DNA of 64,000 nucleotides from Pseudomonas hydrolytica (GTDB lineage Bacteria > Pseudomonadota > Gammaproteobacteria > Pseudomonadales > Pseudomonadaceae). Where the stretch lies: assembly GCF_021495345.1 (NCBI RefSeq), contig NZ_CP099397.1, positions 4,154,001-4,218,000 on the forward strand, read 5' to 3'. The translations under genes and the position numbers were made by a program. Below are positions 21,724 to 36,969 of this stretch, one piece after another. A model generated the notes under the pieces. It ran no database searches. It was given only the letters and a program-made list of their open reading frames with translations, and was not told the DNA's origin. Position 1 is the first letter of the stretch. Each line of letters starts with the position of its first letter.

Positions 21724-22980
21724 TCAGTTGGGGCGCATATCCACGCGCAGACGCAGATAGGAGGTCAGGCGCTTGCCGTTGATAACCCCCTGATAGCCGT
21801 GACTGTCGAAGGTGGTGCTCTTGATCAGGTCGACGCGGAAACGCGGATTGCTTTCGTAAGTGCGGCCCAGGGTGCTGGTCGAGCGGCTGTCGAACAGGTC
21901 GGTGCTGACCTTGACGAACTCGCGCGGGTTGCGTCGGCCGTTGGCACCGCTGTTGTTCGGGCTGCTGAAGATGTCGCCGGTGGCGGTCATCGCCGAGCTG
22001 TAGTACTCGCGCCCACGCAGGCTGGTCTTGCCGCTGGCGATCACGAATTGCTGATTGGCCGGGCGGTAGCGGTCGCCGGCGGTCAGGTAGCTGGCCAGCA
22101 CGTCGTAGAGGGCGTAGCTGCTGCCGGTGCCACGCTGCTTGTTGCGCAGGTCGAAGATGAACACGCCGTTGCTGCCGAGCACTTCCATCTCCACCTGGCC
22201 GAGGCTGGGGTTCTGCTGCACCAGCAGCGCGGTGTCCTCGTCGACGCCGTAGGCGAACGGCACGTTGGTGTAGTCGGCCAGGCGCACGATGCGCCCCTGA
22301 CGGCCGCGCTCGCTGAAATGGGTGTCGAGCAGGCCGTGGCTGAAGAAGCCGAAACCGCCCTGCATGTCGTAGGACAGGTCATCACCGCCCGGGGTGGTGT
22401 AGACGCCGTAGCGCAGAGCGGGATAGCTCTCGCCGCCGGTGATCATCGGCCCGCCGACCATGATCGCGGTTCCCGCACTGCTGCCGGCGAGCACGGCGCC
22501 GGCAGCGTGCCGGGCGCGAATCGCGGCCAGTGCCGGCGTGTCGGCGCGCGTTGCGGTCTGCAGCGTCTGGGTCAGGCGCGCCTGGTCGCCGCCGCCGAAG
22601 AAGAAGCCGGTCATGCCGTTGATCTGCGCGATCACCTGCGGGTTGCTGTTGTTGCCGATGCTGTCCAGGTCGATGGGGATCCACTGGGCATCCTGGGCGC
22701 CGTAGGTCTTCAGCAGCTGCGCGTAGAACTCGCCATTGGACTTGGAGTTGCGCGCGTTGGCCGTGCCGGCGTCGGGGTCCTGGCTCGGTGGAATCGAGGC
22801 GGCGGTGATCACGCCGATGCGCGCCTGACTGCCGCCGGCCAGCTGCACCAGACGTTGGTAGATGACCGCGTTGTCGTCCTTGAGCCCGCCGCCCACCAGC
22901 AGCAGCGGGCCGGCCGCCAGGGCCGGCAGCGGTAACAGAAGAGCCAGCATGAGGGTGTAACGAATAACCGATCCGATCAT
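21724..22980 (-). CDS. cphE: Secreted cyanophycinase, CphE-like (peptidase family S51)
   Basis: The product is 418 aa, the same length I recall for extracellular CphE of P. anguilliseptica. A signal peptide (residues 1-22, LPLPALA-AG) exports it. The S51 fold is marked by GFFFGGGDQARL (125-136), the nucleophile elbow AGSSAG with Ser168 as probable nucleophile, candidate Glu184 (GGES) and His221 (LLDTHFSERGRQGR, the cyanophycinase motif). It should cut cyanophycin outside the cell to beta-Asp-Arg dipeptides. It lies at the end of the minus-strand arm of the cyanophycin locus, after a solute-binding protein and the OprD porin. GGAG ribosome site before ATG. Confidence 0.88.
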   Translation of the reverse strand: MIGSVIRYTLMLALLLPLPALAAGPLLLVGGGLKDDNAVIYQRLVQLAGGSQARIGVITAASIPPSQDPDAGTANARNSKSNGEFYAQLLKTYGAQDAQWIPIDLDSIGNNSNPQVIAQINGMTGFFFGGGDQARLTQTLQTATRADTPALAAIRARHAAGAVLAGSSAGTAIMVGGPMITGGESYPALRYGVYTTPGGDDLSYDMQGGFGFFSHGLLDTHFSERGRQGRIVRLADYTNVPFAYGVDEDTALLVQQNPSLGQVEMEVLGSNGVFIFDLRNKQRGTGSSYALYDVLASYLTAGDRYRPANQQFVIASGKTSLRGREYYSSAMTATGDIFSSPNNSGANGRRNPREFVKVSTDLFDSRSTSTLGRTYESNPRFRVDLIKSTTFDSHGYQGVINGKRLTSYLRLRVDMRPN

Positions 22981-23072
22981 TTCGATTTCTCCGCAGGTGC
23001 CGCACGGGCACGGTTGGTGACGCTGGTTGGGGAACGGTGATTGGGAGCCAGAGCGCAGTCGGCGGGCCGGCC

Positions 23073-23837
23073 TCAGTAAACGGAAAACTGTTTGAAGTAG
23101 CGTTTCTCGATGCGCTTGTGGGTGCCGTCGGCAAGGATCGCGGCCAGCGCCCGATCGAGCTGTTCGCGCAGCTCGTCGTCGCCCTTGCGCACGGCGATGC
23201 CCTGCCCCTGGCCGAAGAACTGCGGCGCCACCACGGGGCCGCCGACCTGCTCGAAGTCGCGGCCCAGTTCGGTCAGGAGGAAACCGAAGTAACCGGAAAC
23301 GGCGTCGTCGAGCACCAGATCCAGCTCGCCGCCGGCGAGCGCCCGGTAGGCCTGGGCGGCACTGGGATAGCGCAGCAGCTGCACATGCTCGGCGAAGCGG
23401 GCCTCGAGAAAGCGCTCGTAGGTGGTGCCCTGCTGCACGCCGACGCGCTTGCCGGCGATGCGCCGCGGGGTGATCAGCATCTGATTGATATGGCCCTTGC
23501 GGGCAAAGAAAAAGGCCGGGGTCTGCGCATAGCGGGCGGTGAAGTCCACCCGTTCGGCGCGCGCCGCGGTGATCGACATGGACGCCAGGATCAGGTCCGT
23601 GCGTCCCGCGTCGAGTGCCGGGATCAGGTCATCCCAGGCGAAGCGCTGCAGTTCGCATTCGCGCTGCATGCGCTGACACAGGGCATTGGCGATGTCGACG
23701 TTGAAGCCGACCAGATTGCCCTGCGCATCGAGTTCTTCGAAAGGCGGGAACTGTCCCTCCATGGCGACCCGCAACGGTCCTGCCGTGCCCGGTTGGGCGA
23801 GCAGCACAGCGAACAGACACAACAGCATGCGTAGCAT
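23073..23837 (-). CDS. Periplasmic amino-acid-type binding protein (SBP family 3)
   Basis: The product is 254 aa; a signal peptide ending near residue 19 precedes LRVAMEGQFPPFEELDAQGN, the standard start of the polar amino-acid binding fold (PBPb). VGFNVDIANALCQRM and RVDFTARY-type motifs follow. The ATG follows AAGGAG. No permease or ATPase is adjacent on this strand. It may serve the ABC transporter encoded divergently at 28776-32086 as an alternative receptor for a larger or modified cyanophycin product (inference). It lies between oprD and cphE, downstream of a terminator. Confidence 0.85.
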   Translation of the reverse strand: MLRMLLCLFAVLLAQPGTAGPLRVAMEGQFPPFEELDAQGNLVGFNVDIANALCQRMQRECELQRFAWDDLIPALDAGRTDLILASMSITAARAERVDFTARYAQTPAFFFARKGHINQMLITPRRIAGKRVGVQQGTTYERFLEARFAEHVQLLRYPSAAQAYRALAGGELDLVLDDAVSGYFGFLLTELGRDFEQVGGPVVAPQFFGQGQGIAVRKGDDELREQLDRALAAILADGTHKRIEKRYFKQFSVY

Positions 23838-23942
23838 TTCGACTCCTTGCCCGCGCGGGGCCAGGGGGTCAGGTCTCCTGGCGGAAAAGAAGGCGCCGCT
23901 GGCGACGCCTTAAGGCCAAAGGAGCGTGGGAGCTGACCTTGA

Positions 23943-23984
23943 AGAAAAAGCTCCGGACGGCCCGGGATCTGTCGCCGCCCGGAG
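23943..23984 (-). terminator. Rho-independent terminator after the porin gene
   Basis: On the minus strand CTCCGG ... CCGGAG (outer arms 23984 and 23956) is followed by CTTTTTC. A second hairpin, AAGGCG/CGCCTT with CTTTT, follows near 23890-23915. They separate the porin transcript from the binding-protein/cphE pair. Confidence 0.65.
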
Positions 23985-23991
23985 AATGCCG

Positions 23992-25332
23992 TTACAGGAT
24001 GCTCAGCGGGTACTCGATGATCAGGCGCACCTCGTCGAGGTCGTCGTCGAATGCCGTGGAGCGGTGAGTGGCGTGACGCAGACGCAGCGACAGGTCCTTG
24101 GCCGCGCCTTCCTGGAACACGTAGCGCGCTTCCAGATCGCGTTCCCAATGCTTCTCGTCGTCACCGGCCCAGCCGGCGAAGGCGCCATTCGGATCGGCCT
24201 TGGTGCCGTCGATGTCGTCGCCCTTGATGTAGCGCGCCATGAAGGTCAGGCCGGGAACGCCGTAGTGCTTCATGTTCAGGTCGTAGCGGATCTGCACCGA
24301 GCGCTCGTTGGGGGCGTTGAAGTCGGAGTACTGCACCGAGTTGGCCAGCCAGATGGAGTCGCCGCCGATGTAGTCGAAGAACTCGTCGCCACGCACCTTC
24401 TGATAGGCCAGGCTGAGCTTGTGCGCGCCGAAGCTGTAGGCACCCTTGAGCGACCAGGTCAGGGTGTCCAGCTCGCCGGCACGCGCCTCGCCCTCGTCGC
24501 GGGTCTTGTACGCCACCAGGTCGAAGTTCAGCGCCTGGCTATCGGCCAGCGGGATGTTGTAGTTCAGGTTGGCGAAGTACTGACGCCAGACGTCCTTGGC
24601 CTCGCTGGCATAGAACATCAGGCTCAGATCGTCATTGACCGCGTAGCTGAGGCCGGCGAAGTCGACGCTGCGCGCCTCCACCTCGGCGTATTCGCTGGTC
24701 ATGTCGTCATCGGAGTTGGTGGAGTTGCGGCGGTTGATCGAGGTGAAGTGGCCGGCCTCGAAGGACAGCGCGTCGAACTCGTTGCTGGAAATCTGGAAGC
24801 CGGTGGCGGTCTCCGGCAGCAGACGCGAATCGCCGGTGGCGAACACCGGTGCGGTCGGGCGCATCTCGCCGTACTTCAGCTCGGTGGAAGAGGCGCGCAT
24901 CTTCACCGCACCGCCGATCTGGCCGTAGCTGTCCGGCACCTCGGCATCGGCGGTGCGGTTGTTGCTGATCGGCAGCAGGCCGTTGCCCACGCGACCGCGG
25001 CCGGTATCGAGCTTGACGCCGCCATAGGCGAAGGCATCGGCGCCGACACCGACGGTACCCTGGGTGAAACCGGAGCTGAAGTTCAGTTGCGCACCGTGTG
25101 CCCACTCTTCGCGATAGCCATTACGCTCGTTGGCCGGCTTGGCGCGGTTGATGCCCTGGCTGTTGCTGCCGCCATGACGGTAGTCGCGGTTCATGTAGAA
25201 GTTGCGGTTGATCAGCTGCAGGCTGCTGTCCTCGATGAACCCCTTGGCTTCCTGCTGCTGACCAGCGACGGCAGCCTGCGAGGCCACGGCACCGATGGCC
25301 AGGGCGAGACAGCTGAGTTTGAGAATGTTCAT
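23992..25332 (-). CDS. OprD-family outer-membrane porin
   Basis: The product is 446 aa. A signal peptide (MNILKLSCLALAIGAVASQA) precedes the OprD-family start FIEDSSLQLINRNFYMNRDY (about residues 32-51). Repeated beta-strand patterns and a C-terminal strand ending RLIIEYPLSIL are present. OprD/OccD channels take up basic amino acids and small peptides. Here it lies between two cyanophycinase genes, so uptake of beta-Asp-Arg dipeptide is the natural proposal. The ribosome site is GGAG before ATG. Confidence 0.92.
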   Translation of the reverse strand: MNILKLSCLALAIGAVASQAAVAGQQQEAKGFIEDSSLQLINRNFYMNRDYRHGGSNSQGINRAKPANERNGYREEWAHGAQLNFSSGFTQGTVGVGADAFAYGGVKLDTGRGRVGNGLLPISNNRTADAEVPDSYGQIGGAVKMRASSTELKYGEMRPTAPVFATGDSRLLPETATGFQISSNEFDALSFEAGHFTSINRRNSTNSDDDMTSEYAEVEARSVDFAGLSYAVNDDLSLMFYASEAKDVWRQYFANLNYNIPLADSQALNFDLVAYKTRDEGEARAGELDTLTWSLKGAYSFGAHKLSLAYQKVRGDEFFDYIGGDSIWLANSVQYSDFNAPNERSVQIRYDLNMKHYGVPGLTFMARYIKGDDIDGTKADPNGAFAGWAGDDEKHWERDLEARYVFQEGAAKDLSLRLRHATHRSTAFDDDLDEVRLIIEYPLSIL

Positions 25333-25394
25333 GCCTTACTCCATTGGTTTTATTGGTATGGGTTGCCCGCAGTGCGGGCGGTGTTCGCAGCCGC

Positions 25395-25715
25395 TCAGGT
25401 GAACAGCTCGGGAACCAGATCGGCGGGGCATTCGCCGCGTTCGATGACGGCCTCGAGGCACAGCGAACTGTCCTCCAGCCAGCACACGAAGTAGCCGGCG
25501 CCGCGCCGGCGCTTGAGGCGAAACGGCCAGCGCCGCTCGCGCAGCTCGCTGCTCACCTCCAGCCGGCGCGGCAGACGAATCACCGAGAAGAAGCCGGCGC
25601 CGGTCTGCACCCGCTCCAGCACCCGCACGCTCGGTGCGGTCGCGGTCAGCGCCACCTGGGCGTTGCCCTGCAGCAGCTTGTGCAGGGCGAAGACTTCCAC
25701 TCGGTTCAATTGCAT
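25395..25715 (-). CDS. Uncharacterised 106-aa protein of the cyanophycin locus
   Basis: ATG at 25715 (MQLNRVEVFALHKLLQGNAQ) follows GGAG; the longer ATG at 25745 lacks a site. It is a soluble, basic, mixed alpha/beta protein with a very Arg-rich middle (RRLEVSSELRERRWPFRLKR, then RRGAGYFVCWLEDSSLC) and no signal peptide. The family is not recognised. Position between the SLH cyanophycinase and the porin, in the same direction, implies co-expression. It could be a small regulator or accessory factor; an adapter for basic ligand or nucleic acid is only a guess. Confidence 0.65.
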   Translation of the reverse strand: MQLNRVEVFALHKLLQGNAQVALTATAPSVRVLERVQTGAGFFSVIRLPRRLEVSSELRERRWPFRLKRRRGAGYFVCWLEDSSLCLEAVIERGECPADLVPELFT

Positions 25716-25745
25716 GGCTCGTTTCTCCGGCGCAGCCGTACCCAC

Positions 25746-25768
25746 CCCGCCTGAACGCTGCAGGCGGG
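25746..25768 (-). other. Intercistronic hairpin
   Basis: CCCGCCTG-AACGCTG-CAGGCGGG is a perfect 8-bp stem between the SLH cyanophycinase and the 106-aa gene. There is no T-run on the minus strand, so it is more likely a processing or attenuation structure than a terminator. Confidence 0.5.
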
Positions 25769-25793
25769 CTGGGGGTAGAGGTAGAAAAAGGCT

Positions 25794-27557
25794 CTAGAGG
25801 CCGATGATGCGCGCCAGGGTCTCGGCGACCTCGGCGCGCTTGACCGGCGCAGCGGGCTCGAAGCGTCCCTGGTTGGCGCTCAGCCAACCTTCGGCCACGG
25901 TCTGCGCGGCAGCCTCGGCGTTCGGCGCAGCGAGGCCGGCGACGTCCTGCAGCGCCACGGTCTTGTTCAGCGTGGTCCCGCTGAAGCGCTCGACCAGCGT
26001 CTTGCAGGCCAGCGCCCAGTCCGCGCGGCTGGCCGGCCGCTGGGCATCGAAGCGCTCGGCACCATCCATCCAGCCGTTGGAAACCACCACCTCGATATGC
26101 TCGCGCAGCGGATGCTCGGCCGGTACGTCGCTCAGCGTCGGCAGGGCCTTGAGGTTGGGCTCCGCAGCCAGGGTCATCTGCAGGGCATTGGCCAGCTCGC
26201 CGCGGGTGATCGGGCGCTCCGCCTCGAAGGCGCCCTCGGCGTTGAGGGTCATCAGGCCGCGGAAGGTCACCGCACGAATGGCGTCGCCGCGGCGGCCGTT
26301 GCCGGCATCACGCGGGGCGCCGGCGGCCGGCTCGCGCAGATCGGCGGTCACCGGACGGATGTCCAGGCGCACGCCGCTGACGCTGTAGTTGGTCTGCGAA
26401 TCGTGGAAGCGGCTGTGGGCGGCAAAGTCCGCACGCTTGCTGAACTCGAAGCGATAGCCGTAGTGGTAGCCGTTGGCCGGGTTGTAGCGGGTCATCAGCC
26501 CGAGCTGACGGCTCGCCGTGTTGTCGGCCAGGCCATAGAGCACCGCCCGGTTGATCGCCGACACGGCCGACAGGTCGGTGAGCAGGCGGTTGCCCACCAG
26601 GTACTCGTTGCCAGGCTCGATCGGCTGCTTGCCGGCATCCGGCCGGATCTCGCCCGAGGCCAGGTCGTAGCGATCGCCATGACCGAGCATGGCCAGGCGC
26701 ATGTCGTCGATGCGCGTGCCGTAGAGCCCGAAGCTCTTCTTCGCCGCGGCAGGGTCCATGATGGTCAGGTAGCCCTCGCCCAGTACCTCCAGCTCGCCAC
26801 TGGGCTTGATCCACATGGCGGTGTTGGTATCCAGACCGAAGCCCTTGCCCGGAGCCGGCTGCTCCAGCAGGTAGCTGGCCATGCGCGCCGCGCGCCCGCT
26901 GCTGGTTTCCTCGATCTTGTCGAAGTGCTGGTCGATCACGCCGGCCTTGAACAGGCCAGCGCCCCTGAGCAGGGCGGTGCCGCGTCGCCCCTCGGCAGTG
27001 GCCACGCCGAAATCCAGGGTATCCATGACCACCCCGTAGGCGGTGGGCATGCGCGCACCGAGGATGCTGGCCCCGGCGCTGGTACCGGCCACCACGCCGC
27101 CCTTGTCGTAGATCGCCTGCACGGCCTGCATGGCCAGCGACGGACTGCCGTCGGCGTTGAACAGCGCGCGGGCGATGCGCGCCTGATCACCGCCGACGAA
27201 CCACACCGCACTGGCCTCGCGCAGCGGCGCGACCACGGCAGGGTCGTTCATGGTGTCCTGATAGTTGTGGCGGTCGATGCCGACGATGCGGATGTGCTCG
27301 GCGGGCACGCCCAGGGCTTCCAGTTCGGCCTGAAAGCGCTTGCTGGAGCCCAGGCTGCCGCTGGCGGTGGGCATGATGGCGATGCGCGCCTGCTCGGCGC
27401 CGCCCGCCAGTTCGATGAGTTTCTCGTAGACCAGGCTGTTGCTGGCTCGCAGCATGCCGCCGACCGCGAGGAGATTGCCGTCGGCCAGTACCTGCTCGGC
27501 ACTGCCGCAGAGGATGAGCGCGGCGAGAAGGCCACGAAGGTTGCGCTGCTTGTTCAT
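25794..27557 (-). CDS. Secreted cyanophycinase with C-terminal S-layer-homology repeats
   Basis: The product is 587 aa. A signal peptide (residues 1-25, ending VLA-DG) leads into an S51 domain. This shows WFVGGDQARIARALF (119-133), the nucleophile elbow AGTSAGAS with probable Ser160, and IDQHFDKIEETSSGRAARM with His211. After about residue 420 come three ~55-residue S-layer-homology-like repeats (FEAERPITRGELANALQM; FDAQRPASRADWALACK; FEPAAPVKRAEVAETLARII). These would attach the enzyme to the cell surface or polymer. It heads the minus-strand arm. The ribosome site is weak. The cyanophycinase call rests on motifs and on the neighbouring CphZ. Confidence 0.82.
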   Translation of the reverse strand: MNKQRNLRGLLAALILCGSAEQVLADGNLLAVGGMLRASNSLVYEKLIELAGGAEQARIAIMPTASGSLGSSKRFQAELEALGVPAEHIRIVGIDRHNYQDTMNDPAVVAPLREASAVWFVGGDQARIARALFNADGSPSLAMQAVQAIYDKGGVVAGTSAGASILGARMPTAYGVVMDTLDFGVATAEGRRGTALLRGAGLFKAGVIDQHFDKIEETSSGRAARMASYLLEQPAPGKGFGLDTNTAMWIKPSGELEVLGEGYLTIMDPAAAKKSFGLYGTRIDDMRLAMLGHGDRYDLASGEIRPDAGKQPIEPGNEYLVGNRLLTDLSAVSAINRAVLYGLADNTASRQLGLMTRYNPANGYHYGYRFEFSKRADFAAHSRFHDSQTNYSVSGVRLDIRPVTADLREPAAGAPRDAGNGRRGDAIRAVTFRGLMTLNAEGAFEAERPITRGELANALQMTLAAEPNLKALPTLSDVPAEHPLREHIEVVVSNGWMDGAERFDAQRPASRADWALACKTLVERFSGTTLNKTVALQDVAGLAAPNAEAAAQTVAEGWLSANQGRFEPAAPVKRAEVAETLARIIGL

Positions 27558-27675
27558 TGTTATTGCTCTTATTAGAAGTCGAAAGCGGTGTGCCCTGCTC
27601 GCCGGCCAACTGAAACGGGGTGACAGCAGGCGCAGCGGGATGAAATGTTTTTTTCACTATCGAGCCACGTGAAAA

Positions 27676-27704
27676 TTTATATACCAGGCATAATCGAGGC
27701 ACAA
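27676..27704 (-). promoter_or_regulatory. Sigma70-type promoter for the minus-strand cyanophycinase arm
   Basis: On the minus strand TTGTGC (27704-27699) is followed after 17 bases by TATAAA (27681-27676), giving a start near 27669. TTTTCACGTG overlaps the predicted start, and a TGAAA-N6-TTTCA inverted repeat lies at 27641-27656 in the leader; both could be operator elements. Confidence 0.55.
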
Positions 27705-27720
27705 GCACCTCAAGCCAGGT

Positions 27721-27765
27721 TTGACAGAAATATTTCTTAAACGTAGATTCGTGAAAAAAAACACG
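27721..27765 (+). promoter_or_regulatory. Sigma70 promoter with spacer palindrome for the transporter arm
   Basis: TTGACA (27721-27726), 17 bases, TAGATT (27744-27749) is a near-ideal promoter. The perfect palindrome GAAATATTTC (27728-27737) sits in the spacer, and CGTG-A8-CACG (27750-27765) covers the start site. That is an ideal arrangement for repression, presumably by the RpiR protein at 32155. The 376-bp gap is strikingly AT-rich here. The leader to ATG 27934 is about 175 nt, with no other clear feature. Confidence 0.6.
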
Positions 27766-27933
27766 TCAAAGGTATTCATGCATCTGCCCGGGCGTTCTAC
27801 CCCATCGCCCACCGGTCAAGGCTCACAAGGCCTTGCCGGCGCCGCCTGGCAACAGTCGGCGTAACGTTCAACCAGCCGCCGCCTGTCGCGACGGAAGCTG
27901 TCTCAACCAACCGCCATCCACTGGAGTAACAAG

Positions 27934-28710
27934 ATGAACAAGATCGCTCTATTCGGCGCCCTGGCGCTGTCCACCTTCGGCACCTTCGCCGTCGCCGCCG
28001 AGCCGGCGCTGCGCATCGGTATCGAAGCGGCCTACCCGCCCTTCGCGTTCAAGACCGCCGACGGCAAGATCGCCGGCTTCGACTACGACATCGGCAACGA
28101 GCTGTGCGCGCAGATGCAGGTCAAATGCCAGTGGGTCGAGCAGGAGTTCGACGGTCTGATTCCCTCGCTCAAGGTGCGCAAGGTCGACGCCGTGCTGTCC
28201 TCCATGTCCATCACCGAAGACCGCCTGAAGTCGGTGGACTTCTCCAAGAAGTACTACCACACCCCCGGCAAGCTGGTGATGAAGGAAGACAGCCAGATCC
28301 AGGACCCGAGCGTCGACCTCAAGGACAAGAAGGTCGCCGTGCAGCGCGCCTCCACCTACGATCGCTACGCCACCGCCGAACTGACCCCGGCCGGCGTCAA
28401 CGTGGTGCGCTACGGTTCCAACAACGAAGCCTTCCTCGACCTGCTGGCAGGCCGTGTGGACGCGGTGCTGGCCGATGTGGTGAACATTGACGAGGGCTTC
28501 CTGAAAACCGACGGCGGCAAGGGTTTCGCCCTGGTCGGCCCGGACTTCAATGACCCGCGCTACTTCGGTCGCGGCGCCGGCATCGCCGTGCGCAAGGGCG
28601 ATGCCGCCACCGCCGAGAAGCTCAACGCCGCCATCGACGCCATCCGCAGCAACGGCAAGTACGCCGAGGTACAAGCCAAGTACTTCGACTACGACATCTA
28701 CGGCCGCTAA
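27934..28710 (+). CDS. Basic amino-acid/dipeptide binding protein (AotJ-like)
   Basis: The product is 258 aa, with signal peptide MNKIALFGALALSTFGTFAVA. The mature lysine/arginine/ornithine-binding fold starts LRIGIEAAYPPFAFKTADGK, with IAGFDYDIGNELCAQM and the RLKSVDFSKKYYHTP motif. It is the receptor of the ABC importer encoded by the next genes, delivering substrate from periplasm to membrane. GGAGT ribosome site. Order and content match aotJQMOP of P. aeruginosa, whose transporter is reported to use beta-Asp-Arg as well as Arg/Orn. Confidence 0.9.
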   Translation: MNKIALFGALALSTFGTFAVAAEPALRIGIEAAYPPFAFKTADGKIAGFDYDIGNELCAQMQVKCQWVEQEFDGLIPSLKVRKVDAVLSSMSITEDRLKSVDFSKKYYHTPGKLVMKEDSQIQDPSVDLKDKKVAVQRASTYDRYATAELTPAGVNVVRYGSNNEAFLDLLAGRVDAVLADVVNIDEGFLKTDGGKGFALVGPDFNDPRYFGRGAGIAVRKGDAATAEKLNAAIDAIRSNGKYAEVQAKYFDYDIYGR

Positions 28711-28775
28711 TCCGCCGCTCTCACCGGCGCCCGCCTCGGGCGCCGGCTTTCCTGCGCTCCACGAGGTTTCCCACC

Positions 28776-29465
28776 ATGCTGCAAGGCTACGGCCCGATCA
28801 TTGTCGAGGGCGCCTGGCTGACCCTGACCCTGGCTCTGTGTTCCATGGCGCTGGCCATCCTGCTCGGCCTCACCGGCGCGGCGCTGCGCCTCTCGCCACT
28901 GCGCTGGCTGGCCAATCTGGGCGACGCCTACGCCACGCTGATCCGGGGCATTCCCGACCTGGTGCTGATTCTGCTGATCTTCTACGGCGGTCAGGACCTG
29001 GTGAACCGCATCGCGCCCAGTCTGGGCTACACCGCCTACATCGACATCAACCCCTTCGTCGCCGGCGTGTTCACCATGGGCTTCATCTTCGGCGCCTACC
29101 TGTCGGAGACCTTCCGCGGCGCCTTCATGGCCATCGCGAAAGGTCAAGCGGAGGCTGGTGCGGCGTACGGCATGAGCAGCGCCCAGGTGTTCTTTCGCAT
29201 CCTGGTGCCACAGATGATCCGCTTCGCCATTCCCGGCTTCACCAACAACTGGCTGGTGCTGACCAAGGCCACCGCGCTGATCTCGGTGGTCGGCCTGCAG
29301 GACATGATGTTCAAGGCCAAGAACGCCGCCGATGCCACCCGTGAACCCTTCACGTTCTACCTCGCCGTCGCCGCCCTCTACCTGCTGCTGACCAGCGTTT
29401 CGCTGCTGGCGCTCAGGGCCGTCGAACGACGCTATTCGGTCGGCACCCGCCTGGCCGAACTCTGA
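28776..29465 (+). CDS. ABC permease, polar amino-acid type (AotQ-like)
   Basis: The product is 229 aa with about five membrane helices. It is a HisM/HisQ-family inner-membrane permease carrying the EAA loop AEAGAAYGMSSAQVFFRILV (about residues 126-145) that contacts the ATPase. It follows the binding-protein gene by 65 bases and precedes its partner permease by 11. With that partner it forms the heterodimeric channel. Confidence 0.92.
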   Translation: MLQGYGPIIVEGAWLTLTLALCSMALAILLGLTGAALRLSPLRWLANLGDAYATLIRGIPDLVLILLIFYGGQDLVNRIAPSLGYTAYIDINPFVAGVFTMGFIFGAYLSETFRGAFMAIAKGQAEAGAAYGMSSAQVFFRILVPQMIRFAIPGFTNNWLVLTKATALISVVGLQDMMFKAKNAADATREPFTFYLAVAALYLLLTSVSLLALRAVERRYSVGTRLAEL

Positions 29466-29476
29466 AGGACTGCCCC

Positions 29477-30172
29477 ATGCTCGACTTCAACCTGATCCTC
29501 TCCAGCCTGCCGCTGTATGCCAGCGGCCTGCTGGTCACCTTCGAGCTGCTGCTGATCGCCCTCGCCCTGGGCCTGCTGCTGGCTCTGCCGCTGGCCCTGA
29601 TGCGGGTATCGCGCTCGCCGCTGGTGAACTTCCCGGCCTGGCTCTATACCTATGTGATTCGCGGCACGCCGATGCTGGTGCAGCTGTTTCTGCTCTACTA
29701 CGGCCTGGCCCAGTTCGACGTCATCCGCGACAGCTTCATGTGGCCGTACTTTTCCAGCGCCACCTTCTGCGCCTGCCTGGCCTTCGCCATCAACACCAGC
29801 GCCTACACGGCGGAGATTCTGGCCGGCAGCCTCAAGGCCACACCGCCCGGCGAGATCGAGGCGGCCAGGGCCATGGGCATGTCGCGCGCTCAGCTCTACC
29901 GGCGCATCCTGCTGCCTTCGGCCATGCGCCGCGCGCTGCCGCAATACAGCAACGAGGTGATCATGATGCTGCACACCACCTCGCTGGCCTCGCTGGTGAC
30001 GCTCATCGACCTCACCGGCGCAGCCCGCACCATCAGCTCGCAGTACTACATGCCGTTCGAAGCCTTCATCACCGCCGGCCTGTTCTATCTGGTGCTGACG
30101 GTGGGCCTGGTGCGTCTGTTCAAATACGCCGAACTGCGCTGGCTGGCCCACCTGACCCCACGCAAGCATTAA
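29477..30172 (+). CDS. ABC permease, polar amino-acid type (AotM-like)
   Basis: The product is 231 aa, the second permease of the pair. Hydrophobic segments alternate with short loops; YVIRGTPMLVQLFLLYYGLA (about residues 56-75) and the EAA loop EIEAARAMGMSRAQLYRRIL are characteristic of the HisM group. The ATG follows GAAGGA. It is co-transcribed with the hydrolase gene 12 bases downstream. Confidence 0.92.
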   Translation: MLDFNLILSSLPLYASGLLVTFELLLIALALGLLLALPLALMRVSRSPLVNFPAWLYTYVIRGTPMLVQLFLLYYGLAQFDVIRDSFMWPYFSSATFCACLAFAINTSAYTAEILAGSLKATPPGEIEAARAMGMSRAQLYRRILLPSAMRRALPQYSNEVIMMLHTTSLASLVTLIDLTGAARTISSQYYMPFEAFITAGLFYLVLTVGLVRLFKYAELRWLAHLTPRKH

Positions 30173-30184
30173 CAAGGAAGCCCT

Positions 30185-31297
30185 ATGCAACGTATCGACC
30201 ACCCACTGCCCTGGAGCCCGACCGGAACCAGCCGTCACCTCAGCGTGCTGCGTTACGGCAGCGGCCCGTGCAAGGCCTACATCCAGGCCAGCCTGCATGC
30301 CGACGAGCTGCCGGGCATGCGCGTGGCGGTGGAGCTCAGGCGTCGCCTGCAGCAGCTGGAAAGCGCCGGACGCCTGACCGGCGTGATCGAGCTGGTACCG
30401 GTGGCCAACCCCATCGGCCTGAGCCAGCTGTTCCAGGCGGCGGTCCAGGGCCGCTTCGAATTCGCCAGCGGCAGAAACTTCAATCGCGACTTCGTCGATC
30501 TGGCCGCCGCGGTCGCCGCGCATGTGGAAGGCCACCTGGGCAGCGACGGGCCGAGCAACGTACGCCTGATTCGCCGCGCCATGATCGAGGCGCTGGACGC
30601 CCTGCCCGCGCCGGCCTCGGAGCTGGAAGGCATGCAGCGTCTGCTGCTGCGTCACGCCTGCGATGCCGACGTCGTGCTCGACCTGCACTGCGACTTCGAG
30701 GCCGCGGTGCACCTGTACAGCGCGCCGCAGCACTGGCAGGCGCTGCGCCCTCTGGCGGCGCGCCTGCAGGCCGGTGCGGTGCTGCTGGCCGAGGATTCCG
30801 GCGGCAGCTCGTTCGACGAGGCCTGCGCCATGCCCTGGCAGCGCCTGCGCCAGCGTTTTCCCGAAGCCGAAATTCCCCTGGCCTGCCTGGCCACCACCGT
30901 GGAGCTGGGCGGCATGGCCGACACCGAAGCCGAACGCGCGGTAGCCAGCGCCGAGGCGATTCTGGCCTTCCTCGCCGAGCAGGGACTGATCGCCGGCGAC
31001 TGGCCGGCAGCGCCGGAACGCTGCTGCGAGGCCACGCCCTTTGCCGGCGCGCAGTACGCCCTCGCCCCGCATCCGGGCGTGGTCAGCTTCTTCAAGCAGC
31101 CGGGCGAGTGGGTCGAACGCGGCGAGGCGCTGTTCGAGGTGATCGACCCCTTGAGCGAGCAGCACAGCATCGTCCGCGCCGAAACCTGCGGCGTGCTCTA
31201 TGCCCGCGAGCGCATGCGCTTCGCCCGCCCCGGCCTGTGGCTGGCCAAGGTCGCCGGGGCAACGCCCATTCGCCAGGGTCGCCTGCTCAGCGACTGA
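30185..31297 (+). CDS. cphZ: Cyanophycin dipeptide (beta-Asp-Arg) hydrolase, CphZ/AotO family (M14-like)
   Basis: The product is 370 aa of the succinylglutamate desuccinylase/aspartoacylase-like M14 group. Zinc ligands are visible as His38 and Glu41 in SLHADELPGM and His168 in VVLDLHCDF. The substrate-site motif GRNFNRDF (97-103) and probable catalytic Glu240 in TTVELGG follow, then a C-terminal beta domain (about 290-370). AotO of P. aeruginosa, in the same place inside aotJQMOP, has been shown in published work to be CphZ, splitting beta-Asp-Arg to Asp and Arg in the cytoplasm. No signal peptide agrees. AAGGA ribosome site. Annotation as succinylglutamate desuccinylase would be the common mistake. 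Confidence 0.85.
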   Translation: MQRIDHPLPWSPTGTSRHLSVLRYGSGPCKAYIQASLHADELPGMRVAVELRRRLQQLESAGRLTGVIELVPVANPIGLSQLFQAAVQGRFEFASGRNFNRDFVDLAAAVAAHVEGHLGSDGPSNVRLIRRAMIEALDALPAPASELEGMQRLLLRHACDADVVLDLHCDFEAAVHLYSAPQHWQALRPLAARLQAGAVLLAEDSGGSSFDEACAMPWQRLRQRFPEAEIPLACLATTVELGGMADTEAERAVASAEAILAFLAEQGLIAGDWPAAPERCCEATPFAGAQYALAPHPGVVSFFKQPGEWVERGEALFEVIDPLSEQHSIVRAETCGVLYARERMRFARPGLWLAKVAGATPIRQGRLLSD

Positions 31298-31321
31298 TTC
31301 ATGCCTTAAGAGAACAACAAC

Positions 31322-32086
<765 letters not shown>

Positions 32087-32154
32087 GCGAAACAGCGCAC
32101 GGCGGGCGGCTTCGGATACACTGCGCGCCATCGCCAGACCGGATCAGCCCAGCC

Positions 32155-33084
32155 ATGCCGAGCAGCTCGTCGTCTTCCGCCACCGTTTACAGCGCCCCCA
32201 TCCTGCGCAAGCTGGCCGAGGTCGCGCCACAGCTGCAGCCCTCGCTGCGCAAGGTGGCCGACTTCATCCTGCGCCATCCGCTGAAGGCCGCAACCCTGAC
32301 CATCGAAGAGCTGGCGCAGGCCACGCACACCTCGCCGGCGGCGGTCAATCGCCTGGCCAAGGCCATGGAGCTGCGCGGCTACATCAGCCTGAAGGCCGAG
32401 CTGGTCGCCACCCTGCAGGACATGGTGTCGCCGGTGGACAAGCTGCGCGACGAGCTGGCGCAGCGCCCGGACGGGGCCTTCGGCCTGCACGAACAGCTGC
32501 AGATCGCCAGCAGCAATCTCGGTGCGGCGGCCAGCAACAATGACGCCGCCGTGTTCGAGGCGGTGATCGGACGCCTGCTCGGGGCGCGCCGCATCTACAT
32601 TCTCGGCTTCGGCAACAGCGCCTACATGGCCGGCCTGGCTGCGGCCAACCTGGTGCCCTTCTGCGATGACGCCACCGCCATCAGCATGGAAGGCGGCAAC
32701 GAAAACGCCGCCTACCGCCTGGCCGCCATCACCGAGCGCGACGTGCTGCTGACCATCTCCCTGCCGCGCTATTCGCTGGACACCCTGCAGCTGGCGCGTT
32801 TTGCCCGCGAACGCGGCGCCTGCGTGCTGGCCATCACCGACTCGCCCGCCTCGCCGCTGGTGGAGATCGCCGAGTACAGCCTGTTCGCCCCCGCCGAACA
32901 CCCGGTGCTGATCAGCTCCAATGCCGCCGTGCTGGCCCTGATCGAAGCCCTGGTGGCAGGTGTCATGGCGCGCAACAAGGAGGCGGTGAGCCTGGCTCAG
33001 GAACTGACCGAGAGCGTCATGGCCTACCTGCACGTCCCGGGCACCGAGCGCGCGCCGCGTCGCCCACGCAAACGCCGCCCCTGA
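32155..33084 (+). CDS. RpiR-family transcriptional regulator
   Basis: The product is 309 aa from the ATG at 32155. An N-terminal RpiR HTH (residues about 10-85, VADFILRHPLKAATLTIEEL then THTSPAAVNRLAKAMELRGY) is followed by a SIS domain (about 125-260, ARRIYILGFGNSAYMAG). SIS domains usually bind phosphosugars but some RpiR proteins sense other ligands. In P. aeruginosa the aot operon ends with argR (AraC type); here RpiR takes that position. It is the obvious local repressor or activator of both divergent arms of the cyanophycin locus (inference). Confidence 0.87.
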   Translation: MPSSSSSSATVYSAPILRKLAEVAPQLQPSLRKVADFILRHPLKAATLTIEELAQATHTSPAAVNRLAKAMELRGYISLKAELVATLQDMVSPVDKLRDELAQRPDGAFGLHEQLQIASSNLGAAASNNDAAVFEAVIGRLLGARRIYILGFGNSAYMAGLAAANLVPFCDDATAISMEGGNENAAYRLAAITERDVLLTISLPRYSLDTLQLARFARERGACVLAITDSPASPLVEIAEYSLFAPAEHPVLISSNAAVLALIEALVAGVMARNKEAVSLAQELTESVMAYLHVPGTERAPRRPRKRRP

Positions 33085-33183: not shown

Positions 33184-33948
33184 ATGAGCGAAACCACCGA
33201 CAGCCAGACCGCCGAACGACTGCAGGCCCTGCACCAGCAGGGCTTCGTGCTGTTGCCCGGCGTGCTGGATGCGCCGCGCGTCGCGGCAGTGCGCGCCGCC
33301 ATCGACGCCCTGCGCCCCATCCACTGGGACTACCAGGGCAGCCTCGATCACTACAAGTGCGTGTTCAACCGCAACCCGTTCTGGCTGCCCTACCTCGACC
33401 TGCCGCCGGTGATCGAGCTGGCCGAAGCGGCGCTGGGCGACGACTGCCACGTGATCGGTCAGACCGCCTGGCGCTGTCATCCGGGCTTCGTCGGCAGCGA
33501 GCTGCATCTGGACCATCTGCCCATGGCGTTGCCACCAAGCCTGCTGGACGACCCGGCCTTCGAGCTGCCGATGCAGATCTGCACCGCCCAGCTCTACCTG
33601 AACGACATCGACGCCGAGCTCGCCCCCACCCGGGTGATTCCCGGCAGCCACCGCGCCGGACGACCGCCCGTGGCCGGCGAGCGTGACTGGCGCGGCCGCG
33701 AGCCCGAGCCGATCTTCTGCCGCGCCGGCGACCTGCTGTTCTTTCGCAGCGAGCTGTGGCATGCCGGCAGCCCCAACCTGAGCCCCACGCGCAGCCGCTA
33801 CATGCTGCAGATCCACTATGGCCGGCGCATGGTGGCGCAGAAGTTCTCGCCCTATCTCGCGTTTCGCTTCGACCCGGCGGTGCTGGCCGCCTGCACGCCG
33901 CGCCAGCGGCGCCTGCTGGGCGAACATGCCGAGGCCGAGTACGACTGA
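33184..33948 (+). CDS. Phytanoyl-CoA dioxygenase (PhyH) family protein
   Basis: The product is 254 aa, a non-haem Fe(II)/2-oxoglutarate oxygenase. The facial triad is readable as His108-x-Asp110 (ELHLDHL) and His193 (SELWHAGS), and an Arg (SPTRSRY) about 10 residues later should bind 2-oxoglutarate. The double-stranded beta-helix is complete. The substrate is unknown. It starts 100 bases after the RpiR gene in the same direction, so read-through from the cyanophycin operon is possible; a hydroxylated Asp or Arg product is speculation. No terminator was seen between them. Confidence 0.82.
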   Translation: MSETTDSQTAERLQALHQQGFVLLPGVLDAPRVAAVRAAIDALRPIHWDYQGSLDHYKCVFNRNPFWLPYLDLPPVIELAEAALGDDCHVIGQTAWRCHPGFVGSELHLDHLPMALPPSLLDDPAFELPMQICTAQLYLNDIDAELAPTRVIPGSHRAGRPPVAGERDWRGREPEPIFCRAGDLLFFRSELWHAGSPNLSPTRSRYMLQIHYGRRMVAQKFSPYLAFRFDPAVLAACTPRQRRLLGEHAEAEYD

Positions 33949-34934: not shown

Positions 34935-35408
34935 ATGCCTCGCCTGCTTCGTCTGTGTTTCGTCGTCCTGCTCGCCGCTGCGCTGGGTGCCTGCGCCAGT
35001 TTCACCGAGCGCGACCCGCTGCGTATCGACCTGGTCGGCCTTGAGCCCCTGCCCGGCCAGGGCCTGGAGGTACGCTTCGCGGTCAAGCTGCGGGTGCAGA
35101 ACCCCAACGACCGTGCAGTGGACTTCAACGGCGTGGCGCTGGATCTGGAGGTCAACGGCCGGCCGCTGGCCAGCGGGGTGAGCGACCAGCGTGGCAGCGT
35201 GCCGCGTTTCGGCGAAACCCTGGTCAGCGTGCCGGTGAGCATTTCCGCCTTCTCGGCCATGCGCCAGGCCTGGGGCGCCAGCGGCTACCAGCCGGGCCAG
35301 GGCCTACCTTACGTGCTGCGCGGCAAGCTGGCCGGCGGCCTGTTCGGCACCCGCCGCTTCAGCGACAGCGGCACCCTGGACTGGCCGGAGCCGCCGCGCG
35401 GCTACTGA
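34935..35408 (+). CDS. LEA-type-2/WHy-domain lipoprotein
   Basis: The product is 157 aa. A lipobox LGAC (Cys at about residue 20) after a short hydrophobic signal predicts a lipoprotein. The rest is one WHy/LEA14 domain: GLEPLPGQGLEVRFAVKLRV, the QNPNDRAVDFNGVALDLEVN signature, and VPVSISAFS. Such proteins are linked to desiccation and cell-envelope stress. Its tail overlaps the convergent MocR gene by 7 bases. Confidence 0.85.
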   Translation: MPRLLRLCFVVLLAAALGACASFTERDPLRIDLVGLEPLPGQGLEVRFAVKLRVQNPNDRAVDFNGVALDLEVNGRPLASGVSDQRGSVPRFGETLVSVPVSISAFSAMRQAWGASGYQPGQGLPYVLRGKLAGGLFGTRRFSDSGTLDWPEPPRGY

Positions 35409-36829
35409 CAGGCCGCCTGCAGCGCCAGACGCAGCTCGTCCAGCCCGGCCTGCAGGTCGTCGAGTTCGATGCAGCCGAAACCGAACAGCAGTCCGGCCTG
35501 CGCCGGCCCCTGATAGAAGGCGGCCAGCGAATCCAGGCCAATGCTGCGGCTGCGCATCTCGCTCGCCAGCCGCTCGGGATCGACACCTGGACGCAGCAGC
35601 GCCGCCAGATGGATGCCGGCCATCGGTACTATGGGCTGCAGCCAGGTCGCCAGATCGCCCTGCAGACGCAGCAGCAGATGCTCGCGGCGCTCGGCATACA
35701 GCCGCTGCATGCGTCGGGTATGCCGGGCGAACTCGCCACGTTCCATGAAATGCGCCAGCGCCAGTTGCTGCAGGCTGTCGCCGTGCCGGTCGCCAAGCAG
35801 TTTGGCCTGCACCAGCGCCTCGTGCAGCCCGGGCGGCATCAGCAGATAGCCGACCCGCTGCTGGGGATAGAGGGTCTTGGAGAAGGTCCCCAGATAGGCC
35901 ACCAGTCCGTGACGATCCAGGCTCTGCAGCGCCTCCAGCGGCCGCCCCTGAAAGCGGAACTCGCCGTCGTAGTCGTCCTCGATGATCAGCACCCGGTGCT
36001 CGCGCGCCCACTCCAGCAACGCCAGGCGCCGCGCCAGGCTCATCGGCATGCCCAGCGGAAACTGATGCGAAGGTGTGACGTAGACCAGGCGCACGTTGGC
36101 CGGCAGCAGGTCCACGCGCAGCCCCTCGTCATCCACCGGCACGCCGATCACCTCGGCCCCGGCACTCTGGAAACAGCTGCGCGCAGGGGTGTAACCGGGT
36201 TCCTCCATGGCCACCCGATCGCCGGGCTCGAGCATCACCTGGGCCAGCAGGCTGAGGCCCTGCTGCGCGCCCTGGGTCACCAGCAGATCCTGCCAGTCGC
36301 AGCGCACCGCGCGGTTGAGCGCCAGATAGCGGGCAATGGCCTGGCGCAGCGCCGGCTGGCCCTGCACGCCGGCATAGAAGCCGCTGCCCTGGCTCATCTG
36401 GCGCAGCGCGTACTGCAGGCTGGTGCGCCAGGCAGCGAGGGGAAAGCGGCGCATGCTCACCGTGCCGCCGGCGAAGTTGTAGCGCCAGCCCTGCACCGGG
36501 CTGTCGAACGGCGCCACGGGCAGACGCCGCCAGCGCGCCGCGGGTTGCAGCAGGCTGGTGGCGGCACTGCGCGTGGGTGCGGCCGACTGCGCCAGGCTGC
36601 TGACGAAGGTGCCACTGCCGACCCGGGTGCTGGTGAAACCCTCGGCAAGCAGCTGCTCGTATGCCTCGCTGACCGTCTTGCGCGACACCTGCAGGCGCTC
36701 GGCCAGGTAGCGGCTCGGCGGCAGGCGTTCCCCCGCCTGCAGGCGGCCGCCAAGAATGGCCTCGCGCAACTGGCGATACAGCTGGGCGGCGAGGGGCTGG
36801 TCAGGGTCGATGCTCAGGTGCAGGTCCAT
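35402..36829 (-). CDS. MocR/PdxR-family regulator (GntR HTH fused to aminotransferase)
   Basis: The product is 475 aa from the ATG at 36829 (MDLHLSIDPDQPLAAQLYRQ), which follows GGAG. The GntR winged helix (residues 10-75, LPPSRYLAERLQVSRKTVSE) is followed by a class I/II aminotransferase-like domain with PLP lysine in YLGTFSKTLYPQQRVGY. These regulators use PLP and sometimes an amino compound to control transporters or PLP genes. The divergent neighbour is the AhpD-like gene at 36970, with an EamA exporter behind it; both are likely targets. Confidence 0.9.
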   Translation of the reverse strand: MDLHLSIDPDQPLAAQLYRQLREAILGGRLQAGERLPPSRYLAERLQVSRKTVSEAYEQLLAEGFTSTRVGSGTFVSSLAQSAAPTRSAATSLLQPAARWRRLPVAPFDSPVQGWRYNFAGGTVSMRRFPLAAWRTSLQYALRQMSQGSGFYAGVQGQPALRQAIARYLALNRAVRCDWQDLLVTQGAQQGLSLLAQVMLEPGDRVAMEEPGYTPARSCFQSAGAEVIGVPVDDEGLRVDLLPANVRLVYVTPSHQFPLGMPMSLARRLALLEWAREHRVLIIEDDYDGEFRFQGRPLEALQSLDRHGLVAYLGTFSKTLYPQQRVGYLLMPPGLHEALVQAKLLGDRHGDSLQQLALAHFMERGEFARHTRRMQRLYAERREHLLLRLQGDLATWLQPIVPMAGIHLAALLRPGVDPERLASEMRSRSIGLDSLAAFYQGPAQAGLLFGFGCIELDDLQAGLDELRLALQAACQ

Positions 36830-36969
36830 GTCGGGCTCCGGTGTGACGGCCCTAGCACAACAGATTGGCCTCCTGAATTTCAACGAAATTGGCTATTTCT
36901 GCAGTCCGTAGCGCCCACTACCCTGGCTGCAGTGCTCGCATGGCGCGAGCGGGATCAAGGAGACAGCTG

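Follow-up and report, generated by a model that had tools for sequence, protein, structure and literature searches.

The locus described here raises the question of whether one block of bacterial DNA may hold everything needed to live on cyanophycin, a polymer in which other microbes store nitrogen, from outside the cell. It lies in a window of 64,000 nucleotides from the Pseudomonas hydrolytica genome (contig NZ_CP099397.1, positions 4,154,001 to 4,218,000), whose own coordinates are used throughout, and consists of a divergent pair of gene rows at 21724-33084. An earlier interpretation made from the DNA letters alone—the sequence-only reading—had proposed a complete extracellular cyanophycin utilisation locus with two secreted S51-family enzymes; all the genes it named were found in this interval, on the strands and in the order claimed, while a conserved gene for a protein of 106 amino acids (25395-25715) and the promoter dyads had escaped it.

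The locus is very probably a scavenging system for exogenous cyanophycin, the observed basis of this reading being gene content, conservation, residue patterns, dyads and genome-wide linkage, from which we infer all the biochemical and regulatory steps. The secreted CphE would break the polymer down extracellularly to beta-Asp-Arg, the dipeptide would cross the outer membrane via the OprD porin, one or both solute-binding proteins (SBPs) would pass it to an AotQMP-type ATP-binding cassette (ABC) transporter, and the cytoplasmic CphZ would split it to Asp and Arg, with the RpiR regulator, bound to the dyads of the divergent region, most likely keeping the two operons repressed as long as the pathway supplies no inducer. 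The transporter half would be a relative—in this genome a duplicate—of the aot operon, with ArgR replaced by RpiR. The polymer most likely comes from outside, since no cyanophycin synthetase was found above the cut-off in the host genome (20 partial matches, the best with 202.3 of 850 bits). The features of the locus are the following:

21724-22980, minus strand: CphE-type extracellular cyanophycinase (S51, predicted), 418 amino acids; curated cyanophycinase model TIGR02069, 129.2 bits against a cut-off of 126.6; matches to 3en0, 7uqw and 7uqv
23073-23837, minus strand: SBP2, second family-3 solute-binding protein, lysine/arginine/ornithine (LAO) type; PF00497; TIGR01096 211.2 bits, under the cut-off of 256.35
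23992-25332, minus strand: OprD-family outer-membrane porin; PF03573, E 6.9e-154
25395-25715, minus strand: small protein of 106 amino acids, no database family; in 18 of the 20 named loci introduced below; predicted local distance difference test score (pLDDT) 88.6
25794-27557, minus strand: S51-SLH protein, 587 amino acids, with S51 domain, middle region and S-layer-homology (SLH) region; PF03575 and PF00395
27651-27675: site B, perfect dyad TTTTCA-N13-TGAAAA, candidate RpiR operator
27722-27769: site A, 48-bp imperfect dyad TTGAC...TTTTCA...GAAAT...TGTCA, candidate RpiR operator
27934-28710, plus strand: SBP1, family-3 solute-binding protein (AotJ-like), presumed binder of beta-Asp-Arg or Arg; TIGR01096 266.1 bits against a cut-off of 256.35
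28776-29465, plus strand: ABC permease (AotQ-like); PF00528
29477-30172, plus strand: ABC permease (AotM-like); PF00528
30185-31297, plus strand: CphZ/AotO-type metallo-hydrolase (AstE/AspA fold); 8EIN, E 9.9e-77
31322-32086, plus strand: ABC ATPase (AotP/HisP-like); NF007908 426.8 bits, under the cut-off of 466
32155-33084, plus strand: RpiR-family regulator with HTH_6 and SIS domains; PF01418 and PF01380, both over the cut-off

Signal-peptide-like N-termini were recognised by eye in both S51 proteins, OprD and both SBPs; SBP2 stands in its own gene row without a permease.

The two S51 proteins and the dipeptide hydrolase

The protein of 418 amino acids passes the curated cyanophycinase model and keeps the Ser-His-Glu triad together with Gln, Asp, Thr and three Arg residues (the R.R..R motif), its catalytic Glu being present in 21 of 21 aligned rows; the roles of these residues in the triad and the pocket are those given for CphEal of Pseudomonas in its description (PMC3235067). 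Its assignment as a CphE-type cyanophycinase is supported by these sequence features, and cleavage of cyanophycin to beta-Asp-Arg is predicted for it.

The second S51 protein, S51-SLH, fails the same model (104.9 against 126.6 bits), but belongs to the wide peptidase S51 family (37.2 bits against a gathering score of 23.9 for PF03575) and carries an SLH domain (28.2 against 20.8 for PF00395), the SLH region matching the Bacillus Sap SLH structures 3pyw and 6bt4 both by profile and by fold. Its residues were compared with those of 3en0 and 7uqv by means of a profile built from 13 relatives and were counted, in addition, in 25 rows; it should be pointed out that this count and the 21-row count of CphE retain two same-DNA pairs (L012/L028 and L013/L035). 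Where CphB and CphE have the catalytic Glu, all 25 rows have Thr (Thr244 in the window protein), within DTNT and not DE[DN]T, and after a five-residue insert Ser or Thr takes the place of one pocket Arg. Of the two cyanophycinases claimed by the sequence-only reading, therefore, the CphE-type one is supported, whereas the pair is unproven because the larger protein, below the cut-off, lacks the catalytic Glu.

S51-SLH might still be a true second cyanophycinase that uses another acid—a peptidase-E-like Asp or an invariant Glu near the insert—and cuts at the envelope, a serious possibility although we lean against it. The protein retains Ser160, His211, Gln125, Asp209, Arg222 and Arg225, while Asp179, Asp182, Glu216 and Glu217 are invariant in the 13-row alignment. 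Moreover, it is the sole S51 relative matched by the CphE query in four genomes (G049 and those of the loci L041, L044 and L045), in three of which it still lies beside the CphZ and RpiR genes; it may thus act alone, which weighs against a purely accessory role. Against a second cyanophycinase speak the lost Glu, the missing pocket Arg and the score under the curated cut-off, and the structure model (mean pLDDT 66.8, below 50 for residues 160-224) is too weak in the active-site stretch to reveal a replacement acid. Judged by its residues, S51-SLH is not a standard cyanophycinase and is most likely an envelope-held partner that would bind, pre-process or, via an altered active site, cut the polymer.

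The match of the CphZ-type hydrolase to 8EIN covers residues 8-364, i.e. nearly its whole length. This structure entry is titled succinylglutamate desuccinylase, as is 8EIP, and we take both to be structures of CphZ; 8EIP differs from 8EIN by a Glu-to-Ala exchange at a position where the window hydrolase has Glu. The motifs HADE and DLHCD and a later Glu, presumably metal-binding and catalytic sites, are kept in 37 of 37 rows. The gene, whose product we equate with AotO, is the sole CphZ match in the host genome. The hydrolase family of CphZ was reportedly presented by Sharon and co-workers in PNAS in 2023. The M14-type protein of the window is accordingly named here, as a prediction, a beta-Asp-Arg hydrolase of the CphZ/AotO type. 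Proteins annotated as M14 or as the succinylglutamate desuccinylase/aspartoacylase family are beta-Asp-Arg/Lys dipeptidases according to PMC10206079, and the name CphZ is in use in PMC12661447.

Recurrence of the gene set and its relation to the aot operon

In a survey of 119 genomes of the genus, sampled evenly from a larger set, S51-SLH was found in five, each time within 3 kb of a CphZ gene, and full-length CphE in four, all of them S51-SLH genomes (a fifth tallied match, in G049, is in fact the S51-SLH protein picked up by the CphE query). Of the 119 genomes, 109 encode CphZ-like proteins at E<=0.001: 92 at E 1e-116 or better, 16 at about 1e-85 to 1e-96—a second, more distant type—and G093 at 1.3e-4 only. 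Close relatives of RpiR (E<=1e-90) occur in 18 genomes, five with and 13 without S51-SLH, and each of the 18 has a CphZ gene less than 1 kb away.

An exact-word scan of genome contigs, which distant relatives would escape, yielded 20 named S51-SLH loci covering Pseudomonas, two metagenome-assembled genomes of Gammaproteobacteria (L033 and L043) and Vogesella (L045). RpiR is present in 19 of these loci, the single one without it (L043) ending at the contig end; the small gene, OprD and SBP1 are present in 18 each, CphE, SBP2 and CphZ in 17 each, and the permeases and the ATPase in 11. Because the neighbours of S51-SLH recur in this way, their grouping is not due to chance. The CphZ-type hydrolase in an aot-like transporter operon, the OprD porin and the RpiR regulator, as the sequence-only reading had assigned them, are thus backed by homology and conserved linkage. 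The locus of Vogesella indigofera (L045) contains S51-SLH beside a 57% RpiR and an NlpA-type lipoprotein gene, with no CphE, OprD, CphZ or SBP1 in it; at another place in this organism (L055), an aot-like operon includes a CphZ-like gene (49%).

The window operon follows the SBP-Q-M-O-P order of the aot arginine transport operon, which we take to be the naming and order of P. aeruginosa, with RpiR and not ArgR (AraC type) as its last gene. The AotQ-like permease shares 87% identity with the permease encoded in the host's other aot operon. This second operon, at about 1.76 Mb (L047, C1:1752000-1770000), has the order SBP-Q-M-ATPase-ArgR with no CphZ (aotO) gene between permease and ATPase; its AraC-type regulator is 89% identical to that of L016, both being taken here as ArgR.

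Copies of CphZ (at least 60% identity) were sought in 13 S51-SLH genomes, five from the survey and eight others. Six genomes have them only at the S51-SLH locus (G000, G014, G063, G118, G121 and G125), one has a copy solely at another place (G122, within the ArgR-type operon L050) and five have them at both (G049, G119, G120, G123 and G126); no copy at this level is present in Vogesella (G124), where the best match has 49%. Trees were calculated with the repeats L028, L052, L053, L054, L056 and L057 and matches below 45% identity left out. In the SBP tree, the RpiR-linked SBP1 (24 rows) is positioned apart from the ArgR-linked SBP with support of 100/99. In the PermQ tree, the ArgR-linked rows lie on one side of a branch (100/98) and the RpiR-linked ones are not united in a single group. 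The CphZ tree departs from the regulator labels: the seven copies of the window group share an unresolved fork with ArgR-linked copies, and 14 other S51-linked copies group with two RpiR-only ones at 93/98. It is a fair inference from these trees that the hydrolase gene has been exchanged between RpiR- and ArgR-type operons, and the locus would best be read as an aot-type operon that was duplicated, received a different regulator and became joined to an operon for extracellular depolymerisation. The GC content of the locus genes (0.639-0.708) is close to the window mean (0.668), so that composition shows no sign of recent import.

As far as the borders are concerned, the PhyH gene (33184-33948) was excluded from the system, as no relative at E<=1e-8 was found in the 35 loci compared. 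Further away, a MocR-like regulator at 35402-36883 on the minus strand passes the curated PdxR model with 439.1 bits (cut-off 320).

The small protein of 106 amino acids is found in six of the 119 genomes, i.e. the five with S51-SLH and, as a weaker match, G042. A compact alpha/beta fold is predicted for it; there was no Pfam match over the cut-off and no NCBIfam match, and the best fold match in the PDB reached only E 0.16. Among the sequences searched, relatives outside the locus were seen twice, in G042 (L064, 9276-9617) and on plasmid pMPC6-328K (L077, 9001-9339); both are distant and lie directly behind a binding-protein gene, beside genes for an FAD-dependent oxidoreductase, a (2Fe-2S) protein and RidA, which are annotated on the plasmid and were recognised by eye in G042. 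We read these neighbours as opine-oxidase-like, and the small protein may serve the uptake of arginine conjugates.

That neither of these two places has cyanophycin genes could mean that the whole locus serves mainly the uptake of arginine or its conjugates, the S51 proteins acting on other isoaspartyl or basic peptides. The transporter parts are near kin of general Lys/Arg/Orn systems, and the 13 of 18 RpiR-type operons in genomes devoid of S51-SLH point the same way. We nevertheless regard this alternative as very unlikely: CphE lies above the cyanophycinase cut-off with its pocket residues, the characterised extracellular CphE of Pseudomonas cuts cyanophycin, as PMC3235067 describes, and specificity of the CphZ family for beta-Asp-Arg/Lys is reported in PMC10206079.

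The RpiR regulator and the promoter dyads

RpiR is predicted to be the local regulator of both operons. Of its two candidate operators, site B is conserved and adjoins a likewise conserved TATATAA-like element on the S51-SLH side. It is the only perfect dyad in the 5.29-Mb host genome and the sole match in the window at up to two mismatches, where 0.11 would be expected and at least one match arises in 9 of 100 shuffles. With one mismatch, seven further copies are present in the host genome as compared with three for the reversed pattern. Two one-mismatch copies lie about 5 kb apart (G000, C1:3100391 and C1:3105664; stretch L076) and are possibly further targets or chance occurrences. Site A lies on the SBP side, positioned like the dyad of the operons with RpiR only, and is two mismatches away from the core motif; a sigma-70-like match at 27721-27749 on the plus strand overlaps it, although one such match against 0.9 in shuffles is no evidence alone. 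Since the dyads overlap promoter-like elements, repression is suggested.

Once derived from the window and the initial loci, the motif was tested within 600 bases upstream of SBP1, leaving out the repeats L001, L003-L006, L028, L035, L053, L054 and L058 as well as loci with no SBP1 match of at least 60%. TTTCA-N13/14-TGAAA is perfect in 31 of 34 RpiR loci overall: in 20 of 21 having also S51 genes (the remaining one has a single mismatch) and in 11 of 13 with RpiR only, or 9 of 11 among those retrieved once the motif was fixed, while L066 and L067, the two exceptions, exhibit a similar but altered element. By contrast, it is perfect in none of nine ArgR loci and not in the one locus where both regulators are missing. 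Its distance from the SBP start is 59-177 bases in the loci with RpiR only. When each upstream region was block-shuffled 200 times, a perfect dyad arose in at most 0.5% of cases. The Vogesella locus L045 showed no dyad between RpiR and S51-SLH.

It is unlikely, in our view, that RpiR is not the controller and that the dyads belong to another regulator or to promoter-linked sequence kept for other reasons. In favour of this alternative are the TATATAA-like neighbour of site B, as AT-rich promoter DNA can look palindromic, the imperfection of site A in the window and the frequency of the core motif in window shuffles. Yet the dyad accompanies the RpiR gene whether or not S51 genes are present, and the ArgR-type operons, otherwise similar in their genes, lack it, and a perfect one is rare in the block shuffles.

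The RpiR-type aot operons of the 13 genomes lacking S51-SLH (L020, L021 and L065-L075), 11 of which have the perfect dyad, are predicted to be dipeptide-only scavenging operons.

The scavenging reading weighed and compared with known systems

Several observations weigh against the scavenging of cyanophycin as outlined above. The specificities of CphZ, the SBPs and the porin are predictions. The permeases and the ATPase are missing in eight of the 19 named loci with long enough contigs, CphE and SBP2 in three of the 20, and OprD and the small gene in two. In the S51 loci the perfect dyad is almost always the site on the S51-SLH side (19 of the 20 perfect cases, with the centre 267-383 bases from the SBP start), and the SBP-side site A is imperfect in the window. 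The ligands of RpiR-family regulators are usually sugar phosphates, none of which is obvious at this locus. It should be noted, finally, that the compared loci are related, so that the counts are not independent.

With the permeases and the ATPase missing in eight loci, the locus is not self-sufficient everywhere, and SBP1, where present, would need another transporter, most simply the housekeeping one. The genomes were examined for six of the eight (L035, L038, L042, L044, L045 and L046): one aotQ-like permease (E<=1e-60, 75-76% identity) is encoded elsewhere in those of L035 (as G118), L038, L042 and L046, two (82% and 50%) in that of L044 and one (56%) in that of Vogesella L045. A replacement transporter inside the permease-less loci was considered as well and rejected, the flanking open reading frames of L038 and L042 looking unrelated by eye (one encodes a PAS protein).

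With regard to its kind, the system is already known, as cyanophycin utilisation loci, CphE and CphZ-type hydrolases are all in print. The window CphE is of the same length class as the enzymes of P. anguilliseptica BI and P. alcaligenes DIP1 (CphEal gene of 1260 bp), and, compared by the residues described, shares with CphEal the signal-peptide-like start and the Ser/His/Glu and Gln/Asp/Thr/Arg pocket (PMC3235067); the main text of that article uses neither "operon" nor "porin". The CphZ/AotO operons of ArgR type (L016 and others) have the same SBP-permease-permease-hydrolase-ATPase order, the window differing by RpiR in place of ArgR and by the attached divergent depolymerase operon. Loci combining a cyanophycinase, a dipeptidase and a transporter are described for another phylum in PMC10206079; the one of the Bacteroidetes strain L21-Spi-D4 (Ben Hania et al. 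2017, via PMC10206079) holds, as here, a cyanophycinase, an isoaspartyl dipeptidase and a transporter for scavenging, but its dipeptidase is IadA, whereas the window has CphZ in this role and, in addition, OprD, a pair of binding proteins, S51-SLH, RpiR and the protein of 106 amino acids. The best solved-structure match of S51-SLH, both by profile and by fold, is the pseudo-CphB of Pseudobacteroides cellulosolvens (7uqv), which keeps DEDT with the Glu and, with its 275 residues, has no SLH region, S51-SLH differing in both respects. As a caution on the split of the genus drawn below, PMC10687191 states, citing work on P. aeruginosa, that the lack of cphB does not exclude depolymerisation.

No literature joining a cyanophycinase with S-layer homology or with RpiR was found, the coverage being poor for subscription journals, and none on such a locus for cyanophycinase, porin and Pseudomonas, judged by title and the start of the abstract. 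The remark of the sequence-only reading that the combination had not been described as one system thus holds for the combination itself, but not for utilisation loci, CphE and the hydrolase family taken separately; as a version of this known kind, the complete set, which includes RpiR and its dyads as well as S51-SLH and the protein of 106 amino acids, is new.

A more far-reaching picture, offered tentatively and with more doubt than conviction, would be that S51-SLH represents a separate group of Gram-negative S51 proteins, held at the envelope and lacking the catalytic Glu, that it captures cyanophycin granules via its SLH region or cuts by an altered site, and that together with the small protein and the RpiR/dyad switch it makes up a dedicated polymer-capture machine, built from a copied, regulator-swapped arginine operon and a travelling dipeptidase gene. 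Most Pseudomonas would then keep the dipeptide half only, feeding on what the degraders release.

The scavenging reading connects the extracellular cyanophycinase of Pseudomonas, itself known for a long time, with a full route of uptake and hydrolysis under one predicted switch, and provides testable roles for an S51 protein without the usual acid and for a conserved uncharacterised gene. It also suggests a split within the genus between the few members that would cut the polymer, with S51-SLH in 5 of 119 genomes, and the many having a CphZ-like protein, which number 109 of the 119, with a close match in 92.

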